Of a stretch of DNA of 64,000 nucleotides, positions 2 to 22,353 are shown piece after piece. The stretch covers positions 186,001 to 250,000 of the forward strand of contig JACPVF010000013.1 of the NCBI GenBank assembly GCA_016191845.1. Direction: 5' to 3'. The notes under the pieces are model-generated. The model had not been told where the DNA came from and did not search any database. It saw nothing but the letters and a program-made list of their open reading frames with translations. The DNA is from Chloroflexota bacterium (GTDB lineage: Bacteria; Chloroflexota; Anaerolineae; Anaerolineales; Villigracilaceae). Numbering within the stretch: position 1 is the first letter of the stretch; every line of letters starts with the position of its first letter. A program made the position numbers and the translations under genes.

Positions 2-445
2 CAAACCGTGGACACACCCTTCGGAAAACTGAGCGCGGTCATCTGTTGGGATGCCGACTTTCCGACCGTTATCAAACAGGCAGGGCAGCAGCATGTTGAC
101 CTGCTCTTCGTCCCCTCAAACGACTGGCTGGAAGTGAAAGACATTCATGCGGGCATGGCCTCCTTCCGCGCTGTGGAAAATGGCCTGGTGATCTTCCGCC
201 AGACAGGGGAAGGTGTCTCGTCGGTAGTAGATGCTTACGGTCACGAACTCAACCGAGTGGATCGCTTCGAAGAAAATGCCTCTGGCTTCACGGGCATCCA
301 AAATATTCAGGTCCCTCTTAGCACGCTGAACACTCTGTACCCGTCAGTTGGCGACCTGCTCGGAAATGCCACGCTGGTTGGGTTGGCGGGTCTGTTGATC
401 GCGTTCTGGTTGACCAGAAAAAAGAAATCCCAGCCTGCCATATAG
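2..445 (+). CDS. Apolipoprotein N-acyltransferase-like carbon-nitrogen hydrolase, C-terminal part
   Basis: The 5' end lies outside the window; the frame is open from base 2. The visible 147 residues are the C-terminal half of a nitrilase-fold (carbon-nitrogen hydrolase) domain: the nucleophile motif ICWD (Cys at visible residue 15), then PSNDW and the RAVENGLVIFRQ segment that in Lnt proteins follows the active-site cysteine. One membrane helix (LLGNATLVGLAGLLIAFWLT) and a short basic tail close the protein, as in Lnt, whose last helix follows the catalytic domain. Lnt transfers the third acyl chain to lipoproteins at the outer face of the membrane, and several lipoproteins are encoded in this window. 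Without the N-terminal half, a related membrane amidohydrolase cannot be excluded. Confidence 0.75.
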   Translation, partial: QTVDTPFGKLSAVICWDADFPTVIKQAGQQHVDLLFVPSNDWLEVKDIHAGMASFRAVENGLVIFRQTGEGVSSVVDAYGHELNRVDRFEENASGFTGIQNIQVPLSTLNTLYPSVGDLLGNATLVGLAGLLIAFWLTRKKKSQPAI

Positions 446-9678: not shown

Positions 9679-10722
9679 TCATGCCTTGACGATCTTCTGT
9701 CCATCCTTGCCATCTTGCACCTGCCATCCGAGAGCAAGGATCTGGTCGCGTAATCGGTCCGAAGCAGCAAAGTCTTTTGCAGCGCGGGCCGCAGCGCGCT
9801 GCTCGACCAGGGCCAGCACTTCCGTAGATGGTCCCTCCGCTTCGAGCGGTGGTGCCTCAGTCACCATCTGCCAGGCCCGCGGTGAGATGCCCGCACTCAA
9901 GTCCTCGGGCTGAAGGAAGCGCCCGATCTCTTCGAGCGGAATCTTCGCACCCGAGGGGAAGATCTCGGGATTGCAGGCCCGCACCAGCGAAACGCTGCTC
10001 ACCCCGCTGACCTCGCACGTGTCCGTCTCAAAGTCGAAGATGATGCCCGTGTGTTCGTCCAGGCCAAGGGTGACGTTCTCAGGTGGCAGCAGATTACACC
10101 ACTCGGCGAAACGGTCCATGCCCACAAAGCAGCGACTGGTGTCGAGGTCCATGCCGCCTTCGGCGTTGTTCCAGTGCGGAATGAAGGACAACGTCACGCC
10201 ATAATCAGCAAACAGGCTCAGCCCAGGCTTGACGTGCACATCCTCGCCGACCTTGTAGATCTCGTACACAGGCAGTGCATGGGCGCCGACAGCAATTGTC
10301 GCAGCGGAGGCAAACACCAGCGTGGTTCCGAGACGGTGTTTCGCGCGGATCACATCCCAGGCAAGCGTCCCCGCCAATTGACGGGCGGCATAGGTCGGGC
10401 TGCCGGGTCCCATAAAGATGATGTCGGCATACAAGAGCGGCTTGAGGATCTCGGGGTTGTCGGGACTGAACTCTGTGCCGCGCTTACGGGCGGGGATAAC
10501 GTCCACAATGGGTTTGTAATTTTGCAGGCGGGTCTTGAGGAAGTCTGCCACACGGCCCGCCACCAGGTTCGAGTTCAGTTCGAAACCCGCCGTGGTTTCG
10601 AGCACGGCAATACGCAACGGGGAAGCATGCTTGCGGGCCACGGCTTCGAAGATGCGGCCGCCCGCCAGTGATGTCTCGCCCGAACCAAGAAAGGCGATCT
10701 GTCCAAGGGTGTGATGAGTCAT
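9679..10722 (-). CDS. Peptidase S51/cyanophycinase-like protein fused to a CysRS C-terminal-like tail
   Basis: 347 residues in two parts. Residues about 5-270 form a class I glutamine-amidotransferase-like fold of the peptidase S51 type: IAFLGSGETSLAGG, IFMGPGSPTYAARQL, a probable nucleophile Ser in FASAATIAVGAHALP, and SFIPHWNNAEGG. Residues about 305-345 (ALVEQRAAARAAKDFAASDR, then LRDQILALGWQVQDGKDGQ) match the C-terminal helical tail of cysteinyl-tRNA synthetases (the ERxxARxxKDFxxAD-x-R-D-x-L signature). No catalytic CysRS domain is present. The tail may bind tRNA or be a reused fold. Substrate unknown. Confidence 0.8.
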   Translation of the reverse strand: MTHHTLGQIAFLGSGETSLAGGRIFEAVARKHASPLRIAVLETTAGFELNSNLVAGRVADFLKTRLQNYKPIVDVIPARKRGTEFSPDNPEILKPLLYADIIFMGPGSPTYAARQLAGTLAWDVIRAKHRLGTTLVFASAATIAVGAHALPVYEIYKVGEDVHVKPGLSLFADYGVTLSFIPHWNNAEGGMDLDTSRCFVGMDRFAEWCNLLPPENVTLGLDEHTGIIFDFETDTCEVSGVSSVSLVRACNPEIFPSGAKIPLEEIGRFLQPEDLSAGISPRAWQMVTEAPPLEAEGPSTEVLALVEQRAAARAAKDFAASDRLRDQILALGWQVQDGKDGQKIVKA

Positions 10723-10726
10723 ATTT

Positions 10727-11215
10727 TTATGATGTGATATTAAGCTGATCTATTACACCTAGCAGCACTTCATTATCAGGGATATCAGACATGCTTGCGC
10801 CAAAATGGGCATAGCGGATGCGGCCTTCCTTATCCACCACACACACCAACGGCATGCGACCTAACTTGAAGATGTTCACTTCCTGGCGGTACTTGCGTGC
10901 CACCTTGTGATCGGGGTCGGGCAAGCCAGTATAGGGGATCTTCTCGTTCGCCCAATAGCGGACAAATTGCGGCGGTTTATCGGGACCGACGGCTAATATT
11001 TCCGCGCCGTGATCGACGAAGGCCTGATGATCGTCGCGCATACGCGCCAACTGCGCGCGGCAGAATGGTCACATGAAGCCGCGCAGGAAGGCCAACACCA
11101 CGGGCTTCGATCCGCGATAACTGGAAAGGCGCACAAGATTACCCTGTATATCGGACAACTCGAAGTCGGGGGCAATCTCCCCAGGGGTGATGAGGGCAGT
11201 GGGATTCATACTCAT
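10727..11215 (-). CDS. Selenocysteine-containing peroxiredoxin (in-frame UGA at codon 49)
   Basis: 162 residues of the AhpC/TSA (peroxiredoxin) fold. The N-terminal part ITPGEIAPDFELSDIQGNLV and SSYRGSKPVVLAFLRGFM leads into TGA (11069-11071), and the frame continues as PFCRAQLARMRDDH through to a normal end. The TGA sits where the family has the peroxidatic cysteine of the FxCPxC motif, giving UxxC (Sec49, Cys52), as in known Sec-containing bacterial peroxiredoxins such as PrxU. A 6-bp hairpin follows at the right distance (see SECIS), and selB lies at 19.2-21.1 kb. The ATG overlaps the stop of the upstream alpha/beta hydrolase (ATGA). A standard gene caller would split or truncate this gene. 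Confidence 0.85.
11042..11071 (-). promoter_or_regulatory. Putative bacterial SECIS element with its UGA
   Basis: On the minus strand the UGA (11071-11069) is followed after 10 bases by a 6-bp stem, GCGCGC (11058-11053) and GCGCGU (11047-11042), with the apical loop AGUUG. The loop begins 16 bases after the UGA and has G at its second position. These values agree with the published bacterial SECIS consensus (a short stem-loop within the coding region just after UGA, with G in the first two loop bases). GC-rich alternatives could compete for pairing. Confidence 0.65.
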
Positions 11216-11946
11216 TTTACAAAGGAGGCCAAAAATTGAACAACCGCCGCCACGACCTGGGCTTGTTGGTCCGGGCGTGAGATGGTCGCCTCATTATCAC
11301 CAGGCTGCGAGCCGTAATTGCCAAATTGGGCATGGTTTCCGCCGTCGACGACCACATACTGTGTGGAGGCGGGATTCAACGCGCGAGTTTCATCGAACTT
11401 GGCCATGCCCGCCATATCGCGCGTGCCATAGATGGACAGCACACGCAGGTCGGAATTCTTGATCGACTCGTCGGCGGGATACGAAGCCCAAAAGACCAGT
11501 CCCTGGACTTGAGCATGGCTCCCCGCAAACAGCGAGGCTGCCACCCCGCCCAGGGAATGTCCGCCCACGACCCAATGCTCAATCTCGGGATGCGTGGCAA
11601 AGACGGGATCGGCAGCATTGACATCGAAGAAGGCCAGGTTCAGGCGCACGGGCACCAATACCACGAGATACCCTTGCGCGGCGATCTCGTGCAGGGGTGG
11701 CGCATAAGAGCGCGCATCCACACGGCCACCAGGGTAGAAAATAAAGCCAACCGAGGGACGAGAATTTGCAGGTTCGAAGGTGATAAACCGATCCGCAGTC
11801 ACGGTCACTTGCGAATCAGATTGCAGCGCAGTCAACGCCTCGGGCCCAGGACCCAACGGGGTCTCGGCCCAAAATACGAATCCACCCACGGCCAAAAGGA
11901 TGAGGATGCTTAGTGCATAAAAAATATAACGAACTTTGAACTTCAT
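11212..11946 (-). CDS. Membrane-anchored alpha/beta hydrolase (dienelactone hydrolase-like)
   Basis: 244 residues. The start at 11946 (MKFKVRYIFYALSILILLAV) gives an N-terminal membrane anchor and a 4-base overlap with the upstream glycosylase gene. The hydrolase fold shows the oxyanion segment FIFYPGGRVDARSY, nucleophile Ser in GGHSLGG, an acid in SIYGTRDMAG and the catalytic His in DGGNHAQFG. Such proteins are esterases or lipases of unknown substrate. It lies in a minus-strand chain: uracil-DNA glycosylase, this gene, Sec peroxiredoxin, all with 4-base overlaps. Confidence 0.85.
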   Translation of the reverse strand: MKFKVRYIFYALSILILLAVGGFVFWAETPLGPGPEALTALQSDSQVTVTADRFITFEPANSRPSVGFIFYPGGRVDARSYAPPLHEIAAQGYLVVLVPVRLNLAFFDVNAADPVFATHPEIEHWVVGGHSLGGVAASLFAGSHAQVQGLVFWASYPADESIKNSDLRVLSIYGTRDMAGMAKFDETRALNPASTQYVVVDGGNHAQFGNYGSQPGDNEATISRPDQQAQVVAAVVQFLASFVK

Positions 11947-12608
11947 TCCATCTCCAAAAGGGACCTGGCTCTGGCCCACACTGCGTCGAACATCTCGACC
12001 GTCAACTTGCCTGTCAGAGTATTTTGCTGGCTGGGATGGTACGAACACACCAGCCACGGACCCGTGTCGAGGCGGTAGGTCGCACCGTGGGCGAACTTCC
12101 AGGCCGAATTTCGCGCGGAATATATCCGCAGCACCCTCTCAAATGCTATCCGACCCAGGACTACGATCACTTGTGGCTTCAAAATTTCTATTTCGCGCTC
12201 GAGATACGGTTGGCAGGTATTGAGTTCCTCAAGCGTGGGTTTGTTGTCAGGCGGAACGCAGCGGCCCGCGGCGGTAATGTACAGGTCGGACAGAGTCAGG
12301 CCGTCGTCCAGGGAGGTCGCCACAGGCCGATTGGCGAATCCCACGCGATGCAAGGCGGAATACAAAAAGTTGCCCGAGGCGTCGCCCGTGAACATGCGTC
12401 CTGTGCGGTTGGAGCCGTGCGCCCCAGGGGCGAGCCCCACCACGAGCACGCGCGCACGCGGGTCACCGAAGCCAGGCACGGGTTTGCCCCAATACTCCTG
12501 GTCGCGATAGGCTTTGCGCTTGACGCGCGCCACTTCCTCGCGCCATTCCACCAGGCGCGGACATTTACGACAGGCAATAATTTCAGCGTTTAGCATTTTC
12601 AAATTCAT
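11943..12608 (-). CDS. Uracil-DNA glycosylase, 4Fe-4S type (family 5-like)
   Basis: 221 residues. Motifs of the iron-sulfur UDGs are visible: an N-terminal CRKCPRL Cys pair and later cysteines that would complete the cluster, the active-site loop GLAPGAHGSNRTGRMFTGD, VLGRIAFERVL, and the leucine-loop motif SYHPSQQNTLTG. The loop has Ala where family 4 has an acidic residue, which favours family 5 (UDGb). It removes uracil (and in family 5 also hypoxanthine) from DNA. The start at 12608 is set by TACAAT 6 bases upstream, a leaderless arrangement. Confidence 0.9.
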   Translation of the reverse strand: MNLKMLNAEIIACRKCPRLVEWREEVARVKRKAYRDQEYWGKPVPGFGDPRARVLVVGLAPGAHGSNRTGRMFTGDASGNFLYSALHRVGFANRPVATSLDDGLTLSDLYITAAGRCVPPDNKPTLEELNTCQPYLEREIEILKPQVIVVLGRIAFERVLRIYSARNSAWKFAHGATYRLDTGPWLVCSYHPSQQNTLTGKLTVEMFDAVWARARSLLEME

Positions 12609-12614
12609 GAGATG

Positions 12615-12620
12615 ATTGTA
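12615..12620 (-). promoter_or_regulatory. -10 box, leaderless uracil-DNA glycosylase mRNA
   Basis: TACAAT on the minus strand ends 6 bases before the ATG at 12608; it lies just past the queA stop and no Shine-Dalgarno is present. It would drive the glycosylase-hydrolase-Sec peroxiredoxin operon. Confidence 0.6.
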
Positions 12621-12637
12621 CCCCTCACATCCCCAGA

Positions 12638-13663
12638 TCACACGATCAGCATTGCGTCCCCGAATGAGTAGAAGCGATACCCCATACGGATGGCGGTTTC
12701 GTAGGCAGAGAGGATGTGCTCCCGCCCCGCAAAAGCGCTGACCAACATGATCAGCGTGGACTTTGGCAGGTGGAAGTTGGTGATCATTGCGTCCACGACT
12801 CTGAACTGATAGCCTGGAAGGATGTAGATGGAGGTCGGGCCAAGGAAAGGCTGGACGGTGGAAAATGGGTCATGGACCTTCTGCTGGCCCGCAGTTTCGA
12901 GCGTGCGCACAGAAGTTGTGCCCACCGCGATGACTCGCCCACCTGCAGCACGAGTCGCGTGGATGGCGTCGGCGGTGGTTTGTGGGAGTTCGCACCACTC
13001 GGTGTGAATTTTGTGTTCTTCGGGGTCATCTTCAGTAACGGGCGCAAACGTATCCAGCCCAACGTGTAGAGTGACGTAAGCAATCTTCACCCCTTTGGCC
13101 TGAACCTCTTCCAGCAGGCGCGGCGTGAAATGCAGGCCTGCCGTCGGCGCGGCGGCGGAACCAGGCTCACGCGCGTACACGGTCTGATAGCGTTCAGGAT
13201 CCGACAGCTTCTCGTGAATGTACGGCGGTAGGGGGACGTTACCCACTCTGGGGAAATAGGGCTCGATCAGTTCACTGAAGCGGATCAGCCGCTCGGAGCC
13301 GTTAAGCAGTTCGACGATCTCTGCCTGAGGGCCATCCTCCACAACGACCTTCTTCCCGACACCCAATCCTTTTCCGCCTACCAGTGCCTCCCAAGTCAAC
13401 GCATCGCGGCGGCGCAAAAGCAGCAATTCAACCTTGCCACCTGTCTCTTTGCGGGCGAAGATGCGCGCAGGGATGACGCGCGTCTGGTTAAGTACCAGCA
13501 GGTCACCCGCACGCAAGTAATCCGTGATCTCGCGGAAGATTCGATGGTCGAGTTCGCCCGTGGCGCGATCCAACACCAACAGGCGCGATGAGTCGCGCGG
13601 CTCGGCAGGCGTCTGCGCGATGGAGGATTCGGGGAGGTGGTAGTCGAAGTCGGAGGTTTTCAT
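12638..13663 (-). CDS. queA: S-adenosylmethionine:tRNA ribosyltransferase-isomerase
   Basis: 341 residues, the usual QueA length. Diagnostic stretches are FDYHLPESSIAQTPAEPRD at the N-terminus, LLVLNQTRVIPARIF, APTAGLHFTPRLLE, and VGTTSVRTLE. QueA transfers and isomerises the ribose of SAM to preQ1-tRNA, making epoxyqueuosine in the queuosine pathway. No other queuosine gene is in the window. There is no Shine-Dalgarno before the ATG; the 5' side holds a GC-rich hairpin (13670-13691) and a TACAAT box (13694-13699). Confidence 0.97.
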   Translation of the reverse strand: MKTSDFDYHLPESSIAQTPAEPRDSSRLLVLDRATGELDHRIFREITDYLRAGDLLVLNQTRVIPARIFARKETGGKVELLLLRRRDALTWEALVGGKGLGVGKKVVVEDGPQAEIVELLNGSERLIRFSELIEPYFPRVGNVPLPPYIHEKLSDPERYQTVYAREPGSAAAPTAGLHFTPRLLEEVQAKGVKIAYVTLHVGLDTFAPVTEDDPEEHKIHTEWCELPQTTADAIHATRAAGGRVIAVGTTSVRTLETAGQQKVHDPFSTVQPFLGPTSIYILPGYQFRVVDAMITNFHLPKSTLIMLVSAFAGREHILSAYETAIRMGYRFYSFGDAMLIV

Positions 13664-19231: not shown

Positions 19232-21145
19232 CTACCCTTTCCTCAACTTCCTGAAATCTCCATCGCGCATCGTCATGCCGATGGTGTCCAGATGTTCGAG
19301 CAAGGCTTGGGCGTATTTGCGGCTGGTGTTGAACAGGTCGCGGACCTCGGCCAGGGAGATCTGTCCGTTTTGAGTAAGCGCCATCTTGACCTTTGTCACC
19401 ATCGCATCATAATCTTCCTTGTGGAAGATGACCTCCTGCGAGACGCTCATCAATTGACCCGAGTCGATCAGCGCATTGAGCAGTTCATCGCCGACCTCGA
19501 TCTGGCAATCCTTAATGGAAGGCGGTGTGTACGGGTTGGCTGCGAACTTACTCAGCAATGCCTTGACTTTAGCCTGTTGGTCATCATCGAAGCGAACTTC
19601 GTGTGCAGGCAGGCTGACCACGATCTCGGTTTTGGATTTGCGATGTTCAACCAGCAATCCGCGTGAAACGATCTGCGTCAGCAAAGCATTGAAGACGCGC
19701 GGCTGGAGTTTGAGCTTGGACTTCAATTCCTCGCGCGGGACGCCGCGCCGCAACGGATAGGAACGATGGTAGTCCACTACAAGTTGCAAGGTCTTTTCTC
19801 GCAGGGAATTCCAGTGTGGCAAGGCCAGGGCCAGCAAATCAGAGGCAATGGACAGCGCGCCGTCTTCCAACAGAATCAACTTTCCGTTTTCCAACAATTC
19901 TGTCAGGGCTTCCATTGCAAGTGCAGACTCGAGCCGTGAACGGGTTACCATCTCTTTTAGCGAGGCAACCTGGAGCGCCAGGGCCGCCTCAAACAGCACA
20001 TCGGTGGGCGAACCCTGCGCCAGCGATTCGAGCGACTTGAGCACCGCCTCGTCCATGCGCTTGTGACGGCCTTTAGGTTGATTATCCATAATGACGCCAC
20101 CACCCAGAGTCTCGCTAGGTGAGGGACGGCGCAGGATGTAGCGGTCGCCACGCACGGCCACCACCGGGTCACGCAGTTCGAGCTGAATCCAACCCTCTTG
20201 CCCGGGCTCAAGTTCTTCCACACCAAGCAAACGCAGCATAGCTACGGTCTCACTTGCGCCAACAAAAACCTTGACCTCGCTGCCATGTTTGAGTGTAGAA
20301 GAAACATCTTTCAACAAGCGGAAACGCGCGTCGATACGGCGCGTAGCCTGATATTGATTCGGATGAACCACCACTTCGCCGCGACGCACATCCTCGGTAT
20401 TCACGCCTGAGATGTTAACCGCCGTCCGTGAACCAGGCGCAGCCCGGTCTTCCTTCTTTTTATGAGTCTGCAATCCACGCACACGGCCTGTTAACCCGCT
20501 CGGCAATATTTGCACTTCATCGCCAATCGACAATGTCCCGTCGCTGAGTGTGCCCGTCACGACGGTGCCAAATCCGCTCATCGTGAAGACACGGTCGATC
20601 GGCAGACGCGGACGGCCCAGGTCAGGACGAACAGGTTTGGTTTCGAGGAGTTGGGTCAGGGACTGGAGCAAAATGTCCAATCCAATTTTATTACGAGCAG
20701 AGACGCGTACGATAGGCGCATCTCGCAGGATGGTATCTGCCACGGCAGTACGGACATCCGCTTCTATCAAATTCAGCCAATCGGGGTCGGGGGCTAAATC
20801 GATCTTGGTCAGGACGATCAACCCTGCAGGAATCTGCAACAGGTCGAGGATGGCAACATGCTCGCGGGTTTGGGGCATCACGCCCTCATCGGCAGCAATG
20901 ACCAAAAGAGCGGCATCGATCCCACCAATGCCCGCCAGCATGTTCTCGATGAAGTCGCGATGACCAGGCACATCCACAATGCCGATCTCTTCACCGCTCG
21001 GCAGGGCCATCCAGCCAAAGCCGAGCTCGATGGTCATTTCGCGGGCCTGTTCCTCCTTGAGGCGATCGGGATGTGTACCCGTCAGCGCCGCGATCAATGT
21101 GGACTTGCCGTGATCGACGTGACCAGCAGTGCCGATAACTCGCAT
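19232..21145 (-). CDS. selB: Selenocysteine-specific translation elongation factor SelB
   Basis: 637 residues. The start at 21145 (MRVIGTAGHVDHGKS) fits the family. GTPase motifs: G1 GHVDHGKS, G2 region EMTIELGF, G3 DVPGH, G4 TKID. The switch sequence differs from EF-Tu in the SelB way (DRLKEEQAREMTIELGFGWM). EF-Tu-like domains 2 and 3 follow (TMSGFGTVVTGTLSDG), then winged-helix domains at about 365-637 that in SelB bind the SECIS hairpin. SelB carries Sec-tRNA to ribosomes stalled at UGA. It sits 2 bases after the coiled-coil gene, in one operon. selA, selC and selD are not in the window. Confidence 0.95.
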   Translation of the reverse strand: MRVIGTAGHVDHGKSTLIAALTGTHPDRLKEEQAREMTIELGFGWMALPSGEEIGIVDVPGHRDFIENMLAGIGGIDAALLVIAADEGVMPQTREHVAILDLLQIPAGLIVLTKIDLAPDPDWLNLIEADVRTAVADTILRDAPIVRVSARNKIGLDILLQSLTQLLETKPVRPDLGRPRLPIDRVFTMSGFGTVVTGTLSDGTLSIGDEVQILPSGLTGRVRGLQTHKKKEDRAAPGSRTAVNISGVNTEDVRRGEVVVHPNQYQATRRIDARFRLLKDVSSTLKHGSEVKVFVGASETVAMLRLLGVEELEPGQEGWIQLELRDPVVAVRGDRYILRRPSPSETLGGGVIMDNQPKGRHKRMDEAVLKSLESLAQGSPTDVLFEAALALQVASLKEMVTRSRLESALAMEALTELLENGKLILLEDGALSIASDLLALALPHWNSLREKTLQLVVDYHRSYPLRRGVPREELKSKLKLQPRVFNALLTQIVSRGLLVEHRKSKTEIVVSLPAHEVRFDDDQQAKVKALLSKFAANPYTPPSIKDCQIEVGDELLNALIDSGQLMSVSQEVIFHKEDYDAMVTKVKMALTQNGQISLAEVRDLFNTSRKYAQALLEHLDTIGMTMRDGDFRKLRKG

Positions 21146-21147
21146 GG

Positions 21148-22353
21148 TTAGCGGCTGGATTTCTTGGTTGGTTTCTTGCCGTGGCCCATAATACGCTCGT
21201 AAGAAGTCAGCCATTCATGGGCGACATTCATCAATTCCTGCAATTGCTTCTCAGTGGTCTCTGTGACCTGGTTCATCTGGTCCTGCAACACCTGCACAGC
21301 GTCATCCAGGTTGGCCGCACGAGACTCGTAGCGCTCCATGTCCTTACGCAGGTCGCGCATGGATTCTTCTTGCGAAAGCGAATACCCCGTCCAGCGTTTC
21401 TGGTCGTCGGCCTTGAACGTGACCCACTCCTGGCGGACGCGGTCCTCAGCCAGGCGCTGCATCTCGGAGACCTCAGTAATGCGGCGTTCAAGTTTGGTGT
21501 TGAGTTCGGTATAAGTCTCCTGCACCTTCTTGGCTGTGCGCAAAGTCTCGTCGATGGCGGTTAACTGCGTATCGAGGGTATGGCTGGTCGTCTTGAATTC
21601 CTCGAGCTTTTCGTTCCAGGCCTTAAGGGCTCGATCTCGTTCCAACTGCGCCAGGGACTGCTGCTCGATGAAAGTCTGCTGGGTGGTCTTGCGCTCGGAT
21701 TCGGAAGCCAGCAACTCACTGATGCGATTCTCCATGTTGCGGACGGCATCATTGCTCAGGTCCGAGCGACCACGCACCTCGTCGATACGTTTGCGCAGGG
21801 CGGTCACTTCGCCTTGCAGATCCGCCACCCGCTTGACGTCCTGGCGGCGGTTCTCGTCGAGGATGCGCTGGGTACCCTTGACCTCTTCATAGACCTTAAG
21901 CACGTCGTCGATGCGAGGCTTGACCTCGGCCACCGAATCGGCCAGGCGCAATTGATCGGCGAAACGAACCTTGAGGTCCGCTTTGACGGCGGCAATCTCG
22001 CCAGGTAGAGTCTTCTTCAGTTTCTCCACCTCCACCTGGACGGGTTCCAACTCTTCCAAGTGGCGCTTGGTGGCCTCGCGCTCACGGCGTTGATATTTCT
22101 TCTCCAGGTCATCCAGTGCCTTGTTGAAATCATCCCGCTGCTTGGACAGCAATTCCGTGAACTGATTCAGGCGCGCCGCCGCGGACGAAATATCTGAGAT
22201 GTCCTTGCCAAGAGCCTTGACCTGCTTGGATACGCCATCCACACTCGTCTCGATGGCCGTCAATTTGTTTTCAACAGCCGCAATGCTAGCCTTGGTCTTG
22301 CGCTGCTCGGTCTCCAGCCAATCCAGGCGTTTGATAATCTGCTCGAATTCCAT
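21148..22353 (-). CDS. Coiled-coil protein upstream of selB
   Basis: 401 residues, almost entirely charged alpha-helix with heptad character (LEKKYQRREREATKRHLEEL, LQDQMNQVTETTEKQLQELM) and a basic tail (HGKKPTKKSSR). No signal peptide or membrane helix is visible, so it is cytoplasmic. No family is recognised. It has a good start: GGAGGAAG 2-3 bases before the ATG and a TATAAT box at 22382-22377. It is the first gene of an operon with selB, which begins 2 bases after its stop; whether it has any part in selenocysteine insertion is unknown. Confidence 0.85.
   Translation of the reverse strand: MEFEQIIKRLDWLETEQRKTKASIAAVENKLTAIETSVDGVSKQVKALGKDISDISSAAARLNQFTELLSKQRDDFNKALDDLEKKYQRREREATKRHLEELEPVQVEVEKLKKTLPGEIAAVKADLKVRFADQLRLADSVAEVKPRIDDVLKVYEEVKGTQRILDENRRQDVKRVADLQGEVTALRKRIDEVRGRSDLSNDAVRNMENRISELLASESERKTTQQTFIEQQSLAQLERDRALKAWNEKLEEFKTTSHTLDTQLTAIDETLRTAKKVQETYTELNTKLERRITEVSEMQRLAEDRVRQEWVTFKADDQKRWTGYSLSQEESMRDLRKDMERYESRAANLDDAVQVLQDQMNQVTETTEKQLQELMNVAHEWLTSYERIMGHGKKPTKKSSR

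Follow-up and report, generated by a model that had tools for sequence, protein, structure and literature searches.

A predicted peroxiredoxin-like UxxC selenoprotein of Anaerolineae and the conservation of its in-frame UGA codon

Introduction

Selenoproteins that combine a PF00578 domain with a UxxC or UxxU motif are described as peroxiredoxin-like (Prx-like) thiol:disulfide oxidoreductases (PMC1088965, PMC2398784, PMC13188914, PMC9312934). UxxC proteins are filed as Prx-like, while the name Sec-peroxiredoxin is kept for TxxU proteins (PMC1088965, PMC13188914), whose full motif is PxxxTxxU (PMC13188914). The family has been called "Prx-like" in the Sargasso Sea data and "Prx-like 1" in the GOS data, with WP_010940744.1 as a representative. 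The Sargasso Sea family comprised 22 Sec and 4 Cys forms (PMC1088965), GOS "Prx-like 1" 225 Sec versus 2,740 Cys forms (PMC2398784), and a survey covering over 5,200 organisms counted 32 Prx-like UxxC selenoproteins in 28 of them (PMC5029168). SelL has also been termed a Prx-like protein (PMC2398784). For Chloroflexi, three selenoproteins in three families have been listed (PMC1794560); the string "Chloroflex" is absent from the main texts of PMC13188914, PMC2398784, PMC5029168 and PMC9312934, and in listings from a largely open-access literature, judged by titles and the first lines of abstracts, none dealt with a Prx-like selenoprotein from Anaerolineae.

The window analyzed here is a stretch of 64,000 nucleotides from a Chloroflexota bacterium of the Villigracilaceae (assembly GCA_016191845.1). 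A first-pass annotation had proposed that a minus-strand frame at 10727-11215 hides a selenoprotein, namely a peroxiredoxin of the PrxU type with UGA at the peroxidatic cysteine. Our analysis indicates that the locus is very probably a selenoprotein gene of the Prx-like kind, the layout being that of the published Prx-like thiol:disulfide oxidoreductases (UxxC) and not of Sec-peroxiredoxin (TxxU).

Gene structure and neighbourhood

The features of the locus are as follows:
10727..11215, minus strand: Prx-like selenoprotein gene, 162 residues including Sec49-Pro-Phe-Cys52 (predicted from the frame, the Pfam match and the TGA across genomes)
11069..11071, minus strand: in-frame TGA, predicted Sec49 (126 of the 129 loci fetched have TGA at this column)
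11060..11062, minus strand: TGC codon, Cys52, aligned to the peroxidatic Cys of peroxiredoxins (128 of the 129 loci fetched have Cys here)
11212..12057, minus strand: alpha/beta hydrolase ORF directly upstream, with ATGA overlap (ORF list, Pfam)
9679..10722, minus strand: downstream gene with a C-terminal CysS_C domain (28.7 bits, cut-off 23)

The frame runs from the ATG at 11215 to a TAA ending at 10727 and is interrupted by one TGA only, at codon 49; with UGA taken as Sec, the local sequence is FLRGFM-U-PFC. The Pfam AhpC-TSA domain (PF00578) spans the UGA, covering residues 11-135 with 95.9 bits (cut-off 26). Under the standard code (table 11) the sole open part is a 107-aa ORF at 10727-11050, as given by the ORF listing and not by a gene caller, and its TTG start at 11050 falls inside the proposed SECIS loop. 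The ATG of the gene overlaps the stop codon of the hydrolase, a TGA at 11212-11214, as ATGA, and the next two upstream ORFs, 11943-12641 and 12638-13663, have four-base overlaps too. In all these respects, i.e., the start, the single TGA and the normal stop, the UPFC motif, homology continuing across the TGA, the four-base overlaps within the operon and the 107-residue remnant of the standard reading, the first-pass annotation was accurate.

The hydrolase is not a fixed neighbour: in relatives its adjacency was not constant, or no hydrolase was found in the flank. The search for the downstream neighbour covered loci L012-L060 (the copy L081, of the window's clade A defined below, lay outside this range); a homologue of the 9679-10722 gene is directly downstream in all 38 loci L012-L049 and in one of the 11 others (L060). 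The CysS_C domain of its product is a C-terminal domain of the cysteinyl-tRNA ligase type, and a Pfam search with the rest of this protein gave no match.

Selenocysteine decoding genes

The genome to which the window belongs (4.63 Mb, 99% complete) possesses all four components taken as the bacterial Sec-decoding set, selA, selB, selC and selD, each matched above its cut-off. One of them is encoded in the window itself, about 8 kb from the gene, as the first-pass annotation had noted:
19232..21214, minus strand: selB, Sec-specific elongation factor (TIGR00475, 327.2 bits, cut-off 242.25; SelB winged-helix domains)

The other three, which that annotation had suggested looking for and whose absence it had named as refuting evidence, were found in this genome: selC (tRNA-Sec, 70.4 bits, cut-off 47; identified by ARAGORN as SeC with anticodon tca), selA (532.3 bits) and selD, whose match (348.1 bits) contains one TGA. 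The selD locus (L010, G000:C11:231350-232282 plus flanks) has its TGA near the start, in the context CAG-U-ASK, followed after 33 nt by a GUU-loop hairpin akin to the AGUU loop of the Prx-like gene.

The profile searches were calibrated on 14 control genomes. At E <= 0.001, tRNA-Sec, selD and selB were matched in all 14 and selA in four; above the cut-offs, the numbers were 5, 2, 2 and 1 of 14 for tRNA-Sec, selD, selB and selA, respectively. As evidence we accepted a match only if it exceeded the cut-off or, for selA, lay far below 1e-50. Strong selA is present in 108 of 116 genomes with a TGA copy versus 207 of the 280 remaining genomes (Fisher p 5e-6, with genomes treated as independent and counts read by hand). 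The eight TGA genomes without strong selA are drafts of 200 to 1110 contigs, and in seven of them selB is over the cut-off; in the remaining one, G275 (1110 contigs), neither selA nor selB exceeded the cut-off in profile searches. In G427, which carries a Cys copy, selB is over the cut-off as well.

Conservation of the UGA codon

Homologs were collected from three overlapping genome draws. The same-family set (152 genomes) yielded 132 matches at E <= 1e-30 in 108 genomes; 131 of them contain the TGA, two of these having a second stop, and one has no stop at all. In the class draw (396 genomes) a match at E <= 1e-30 was found in 117, with TGA in 116 and a stop-free copy in G427; three of the 116 best TGA matches have an additional stop. 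In the phylum draw (151 genomes) TGA is present in all 18 matches at E <= 1e-20, which come from 17 genomes, five of them outside the class. The 129 loci that were fetched are a chosen subset, with L062 and L063 put in deliberately as Cys copies and some TGA copies left out. Of these loci, 126 have TGA in the Sec column and three (L062, L063, L140) have TGC; at the second position of the motif 128 have Cys, the single exception having Ala. The pattern exceeds chance, since the TGA column is conserved over many genomes. Random stops at this site in close relatives, named by the first-pass annotation as evidence against Sec, did not occur.

Comparison with the same-genus copy L013 shows that the sequence is maintained as coding on both sides of the TGA, with pN/pS of 0.155/0.578 before it and 0.123/0.705 after it; before the TGA the values are 0.206/0.723 against L016 and 0.239/0.718 against L019. 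L020 and L026 were left out of the pre-TGA comparison, being one residue short there (ungapped pN about 0.6).

Cys forms were sought by a contig scan whose pattern held Cys in the Sec column and could thus detect only such forms. It returned eight loci: two from Anaerolineae/Anaerolineales and six distant ones, namely one from Bacillota, one from Rhizobiales and four from Sphingomonas. The Cys copies L062 and L063 belong to genomes of the same family (G053) and the same order (G427), respectively. In a tree of the 129 copies, built on few columns with unsettled bootstrap and a midpoint root, the window copy falls in a supported same-family clade beside the same-genus copy, and the three Cys copies occur as isolated tips, requiring three changes for three rows, equal to shuffles. 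The simplest reading is that of rare Sec-to-Cys losses.

Several other TGA copies were observed. The genome itself has a second one (L061, G000:C15:9012-10058) with UPFC, 51% identity and a hairpin with an AGUU loop 25 nt past the UGA. A distant sister group from three same-family genomes (L064, L065 and L066) has TGA, the motif UMQC and an AGUU hairpin loop. One TGA copy (L137 in G272) reads UPFA, its second Cys being replaced by Ala, and hence has a lone Sec.

Proposed SECIS element

A hairpin was proposed downstream of the UGA:
11042..11058, minus strand: proposed SECIS hairpin, 6-bp stem and 5-nt loop AGUUG (11048-11052), 16 nt past the UGA

A weaker lower stem extends it to 11037 and 11062. 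The published model of bacterial SECIS requires a stem of 4-16 bp, a loop of 3-9 nt with G in the first two loop positions, a distance of 16-37 nt from the UGA and an MFE <= -7.5 (PMC13188914, including the legend of Fig. 2); the window hairpin agrees with it in all respects (6 bp, AGUUG, 16 nt, -10.0 kcal/mol for a 19-nt stretch). By itself this model is loose. Among the 123 TGA copies scoring >= 240, on which the SECIS tests were made, 118 match it when the stem must have 5 bp or more, versus 628 of 1599 control positions, and 121 when 4 bp suffice, versus 1057 of 1599; L083 and L088 fail even the loose form.

The position of the loop divides the copies. In clade A (39 copies, including that of the window) the loop AGUUG, closed by a 6-bp stem, stands 16 nt past the UGA; its sister group B (62 copies, including L061) has AGUU closed by a stem 9 nt further along, at 25 nt. 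Over all 123 copies AGUU starts at 16 nt in 34, at 25 nt in 76 and at neither distance in 13. In the loop count, which took these 39 and 62 copies and left out 22, the loop Leu is encoded by TTG in 35 of 39 (clade A) and 62 of 62 (group B), while the share of TTG among other Leu codons of the same genes is 18.6% and 17.6%, respectively. Neighbouring codons are frozen too, e.g., Ala GCG in 39 of 39 clade A copies (this count used a slightly different filter for group B, 57 rows). In addition, the 48-nt stretch following the UGA is more stably folded than its synonymous-codon shuffles (mean z -1.19, n = 123), against mean z from -0.13 to -0.28 in four control windows of the same genes. For the window copy alone, 44-70 nt compared with dinucleotide shuffles showed no excess stability (z 1.41, 1.06 and 0.00).

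In clade A no double change was found in any of the nine pairs; pairing is 95.2%, a level equalled in 500 of 500 shuffles, and it is still 83.8% when the 3' side is slid by 2 (GC repeat). In group B pairing reaches 99.5%, with two double changes, both in single cells, a number reached by 1 of 500 shuffles; a slide of +3 gives two double-change pairs too. With covariation absent in clade A and slight in group B, it is the frozen synonymous sites and the recurring loop, more than paired changes, that carry the case for a SECIS. A search of the whole window with Rfam at gathering scores gave no match, which is no argument against a SECIS within a coding region. In the TGC copy L062 (G053:C52), a different stem, GUUCC/GGAAC around CAGUUAA, lies at the place of the SECIS; possibly this single case is a SECIS fossil.

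Fold and position of the predicted selenocysteine

Profile alignment places Cys52, and not Sec49, at the position of the peroxidatic Cys, with Sec49 predicted to lie three residues before it. In the HMMER alignments with 2ywn and 2cx3, Cys52 falls on the Cys of the PxxxT/SxxC motif, Sec49 on its Thr/Ser and Arg45 on its Pro, and Pro122 falls on the Arg before the next strand. These Pro, Thr/Ser, Cys and Arg columns hold the catalytic residues of peroxiredoxins. The CxxC of ResA aligns to residues 49 and 52. An alignment of 46 rows (A3) was drawn from 122 usable copies, with L083, L135 and L139 excluded because they have a second stop; in it R45, P122 and the Sec/Cys of column 49 do not vary, and C52 hardly does.

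The AlphaFold model (pLDDT 92.6) has a helix beginning at residue 50, directly past Sec49. In fold comparison by VIA-align the AhpE and Bcp rows have Z of about 22 (AhpE 22.4), and Prx rows rank above ResA rows. Residues 5..153 of AhpE align onto 12..160 with an offset of 7 at either end, which, if there is no gap between, would place Cys52 on AhpE residue 45, the peroxidatic Cys of that protein. The assignment of Cys52 is based on the HMMER alignments and the end offsets of the VIA rows. Two statements of the first-pass annotation find no support in these results: a UGA at the position of the peroxidatic cysteine, which the alignments place three residues further on, and a UxxC layout shared with PrxU, Sec-peroxiredoxin being given as TxxU (PMC1088965, PMC13188914) and the PrxU model NF040737 giving 23.7 bits (cut-off 270).

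Alternative readings of the UGA codon

The conserved TGA, the sel genes and the SECIS-like hairpin strongly support the hidden selenoprotein of the first-pass annotation. Were the UGA a real stop, the locus would be a degraded gene or encode a 107-residue protein from the TTG at 11050, and table 11 indeed opens nothing but this ORF. This is very improbable: the column is TGA in nearly all fetched loci, pN is well below pS upstream of the TGA, the TTG at 11050 coincides with the codon in the loop of the proposed SECIS, and a 107-residue product would lack the first strands of the fold together with residues 49-52. Degradation by a stop codon was rejected given the conserved TGA column and the coding constraint before it. 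Even less credible is a UGA read as tryptophan or by general read-through, for which there is the open frame and nothing beyond. The upstream hydrolase frame itself ends in TGA, all three exceptions at the site are TGC and none TGG, and both sel genes and a SECIS-like hairpin were found; on these grounds the reading as Trp was rejected.

Another reading keeps the selenoprotein and makes it a true Sec-peroxiredoxin of the PrxU type, in which Sec49 would be peroxidatic and Cys52 resolving. It is consistent with the Prx fold and its high Z to AhpE and Bcp, with the Pfam AhpC-TSA match and with the rank of Prx rows above ResA rows in the fold lists; moreover, a Sec at the N-terminus of a helix could well reduce peroxides, as in GPX. 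However, the alignments with 2ywn and 2cx3 (Cys52 on Cys, Sec49 on Thr/Ser, Arg45 on Pro, Pro122 on Arg), the AhpE offset that would put Cys52 on residue 45, and a PrxU model score of less than a tenth of its cut-off make this reading unlikely.

Under the preferred reading, a Prx-like selenoprotein, the gene would yield a peroxiredoxin-like protein of thioredoxin fold, with the UGA of codon 49 decoded as selenocysteine by SelB and Sec-tRNA acting at the UGA and the hairpin. Sec49 could be the attacking residue of the UxxC pair and form a selenenylsulfide with Cys52, which a thioredoxin-like partner would reduce again. As no signal peptide was seen by eye in the window protein, it may be noted alongside that the predicted role is that of a cytosolic thiol:disulfide oxidoreductase or GPX-like peroxide reductase, distinct from classical peroxiredoxin chemistry. 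Judged from the sequence, this chemistry and role are somewhat favoured, with considerable reservation.

Comparison with known systems

A selenoprotein gene found in more than 100 genomes (116 in the class draw) shrinks to a 107-residue ORF under the standard code. Prx-like UxxC selenoproteins are already known; in the literature searched, a lineage with nearly fixed Sec and two hairpin positions was not met. We give even chances to the view that Chloroflexota harbor such a Prx-like family, with Sec nearly fixed in the class, a SECIS moved by three codons within the coding sequence (16 versus 25 nt from the UGA) with AGUU kept, and a Cys copy (L062) with an apparent hairpin fossil. The family offers a well-sampled SECIS whose recognisable loop occurs at two positions. 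Replacement of Sec by Cys is rare here, so that the reason for keeping Sec is open to testing, and, if the view is true, the family would lend itself well to studying why Sec becomes difficult to replace.

With the Prx-like oxidoreductase selenoproteins the window protein shares the PF00578 domain and a thioredoxin-like UxxC in place of TxxU, a likeness of domain and motif. GOS "Prx-like 1" is mostly Cys, whereas the window's family is almost all Sec; the Sargasso Sea family is likewise Sec-predominant (22 Sec, 4 Cys; PMC1088965), so this predominance has a precedent and is not unique to the window's family.

Sec-peroxiredoxin (PrxU) has the AhpC/TSA fold in common with the window protein. In the latter, however, Sec occupies the Thr position, the Pro, Thr and Arg of peroxiredoxins correspond to Arg45, Sec49 and Pro122, and the motif reads R45xxxU49xxC52 instead of PxxxTxxU. 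No NCBIfam model reached its cut-off with the window copy, the best match being NF040769 (SelL-related redox protein, 71.1 bits, cut-off 120). SelL has UxxU, while the window protein has one Sec and one Cys. In the ResA/TlpA thiol:disulfide oxidoreductases, the CxxC of ResA aligns with residues 49 and 52; the window protein differs in having Sec and no N-terminal anchor visible by eye, and ResA stands lower in its fold lists.
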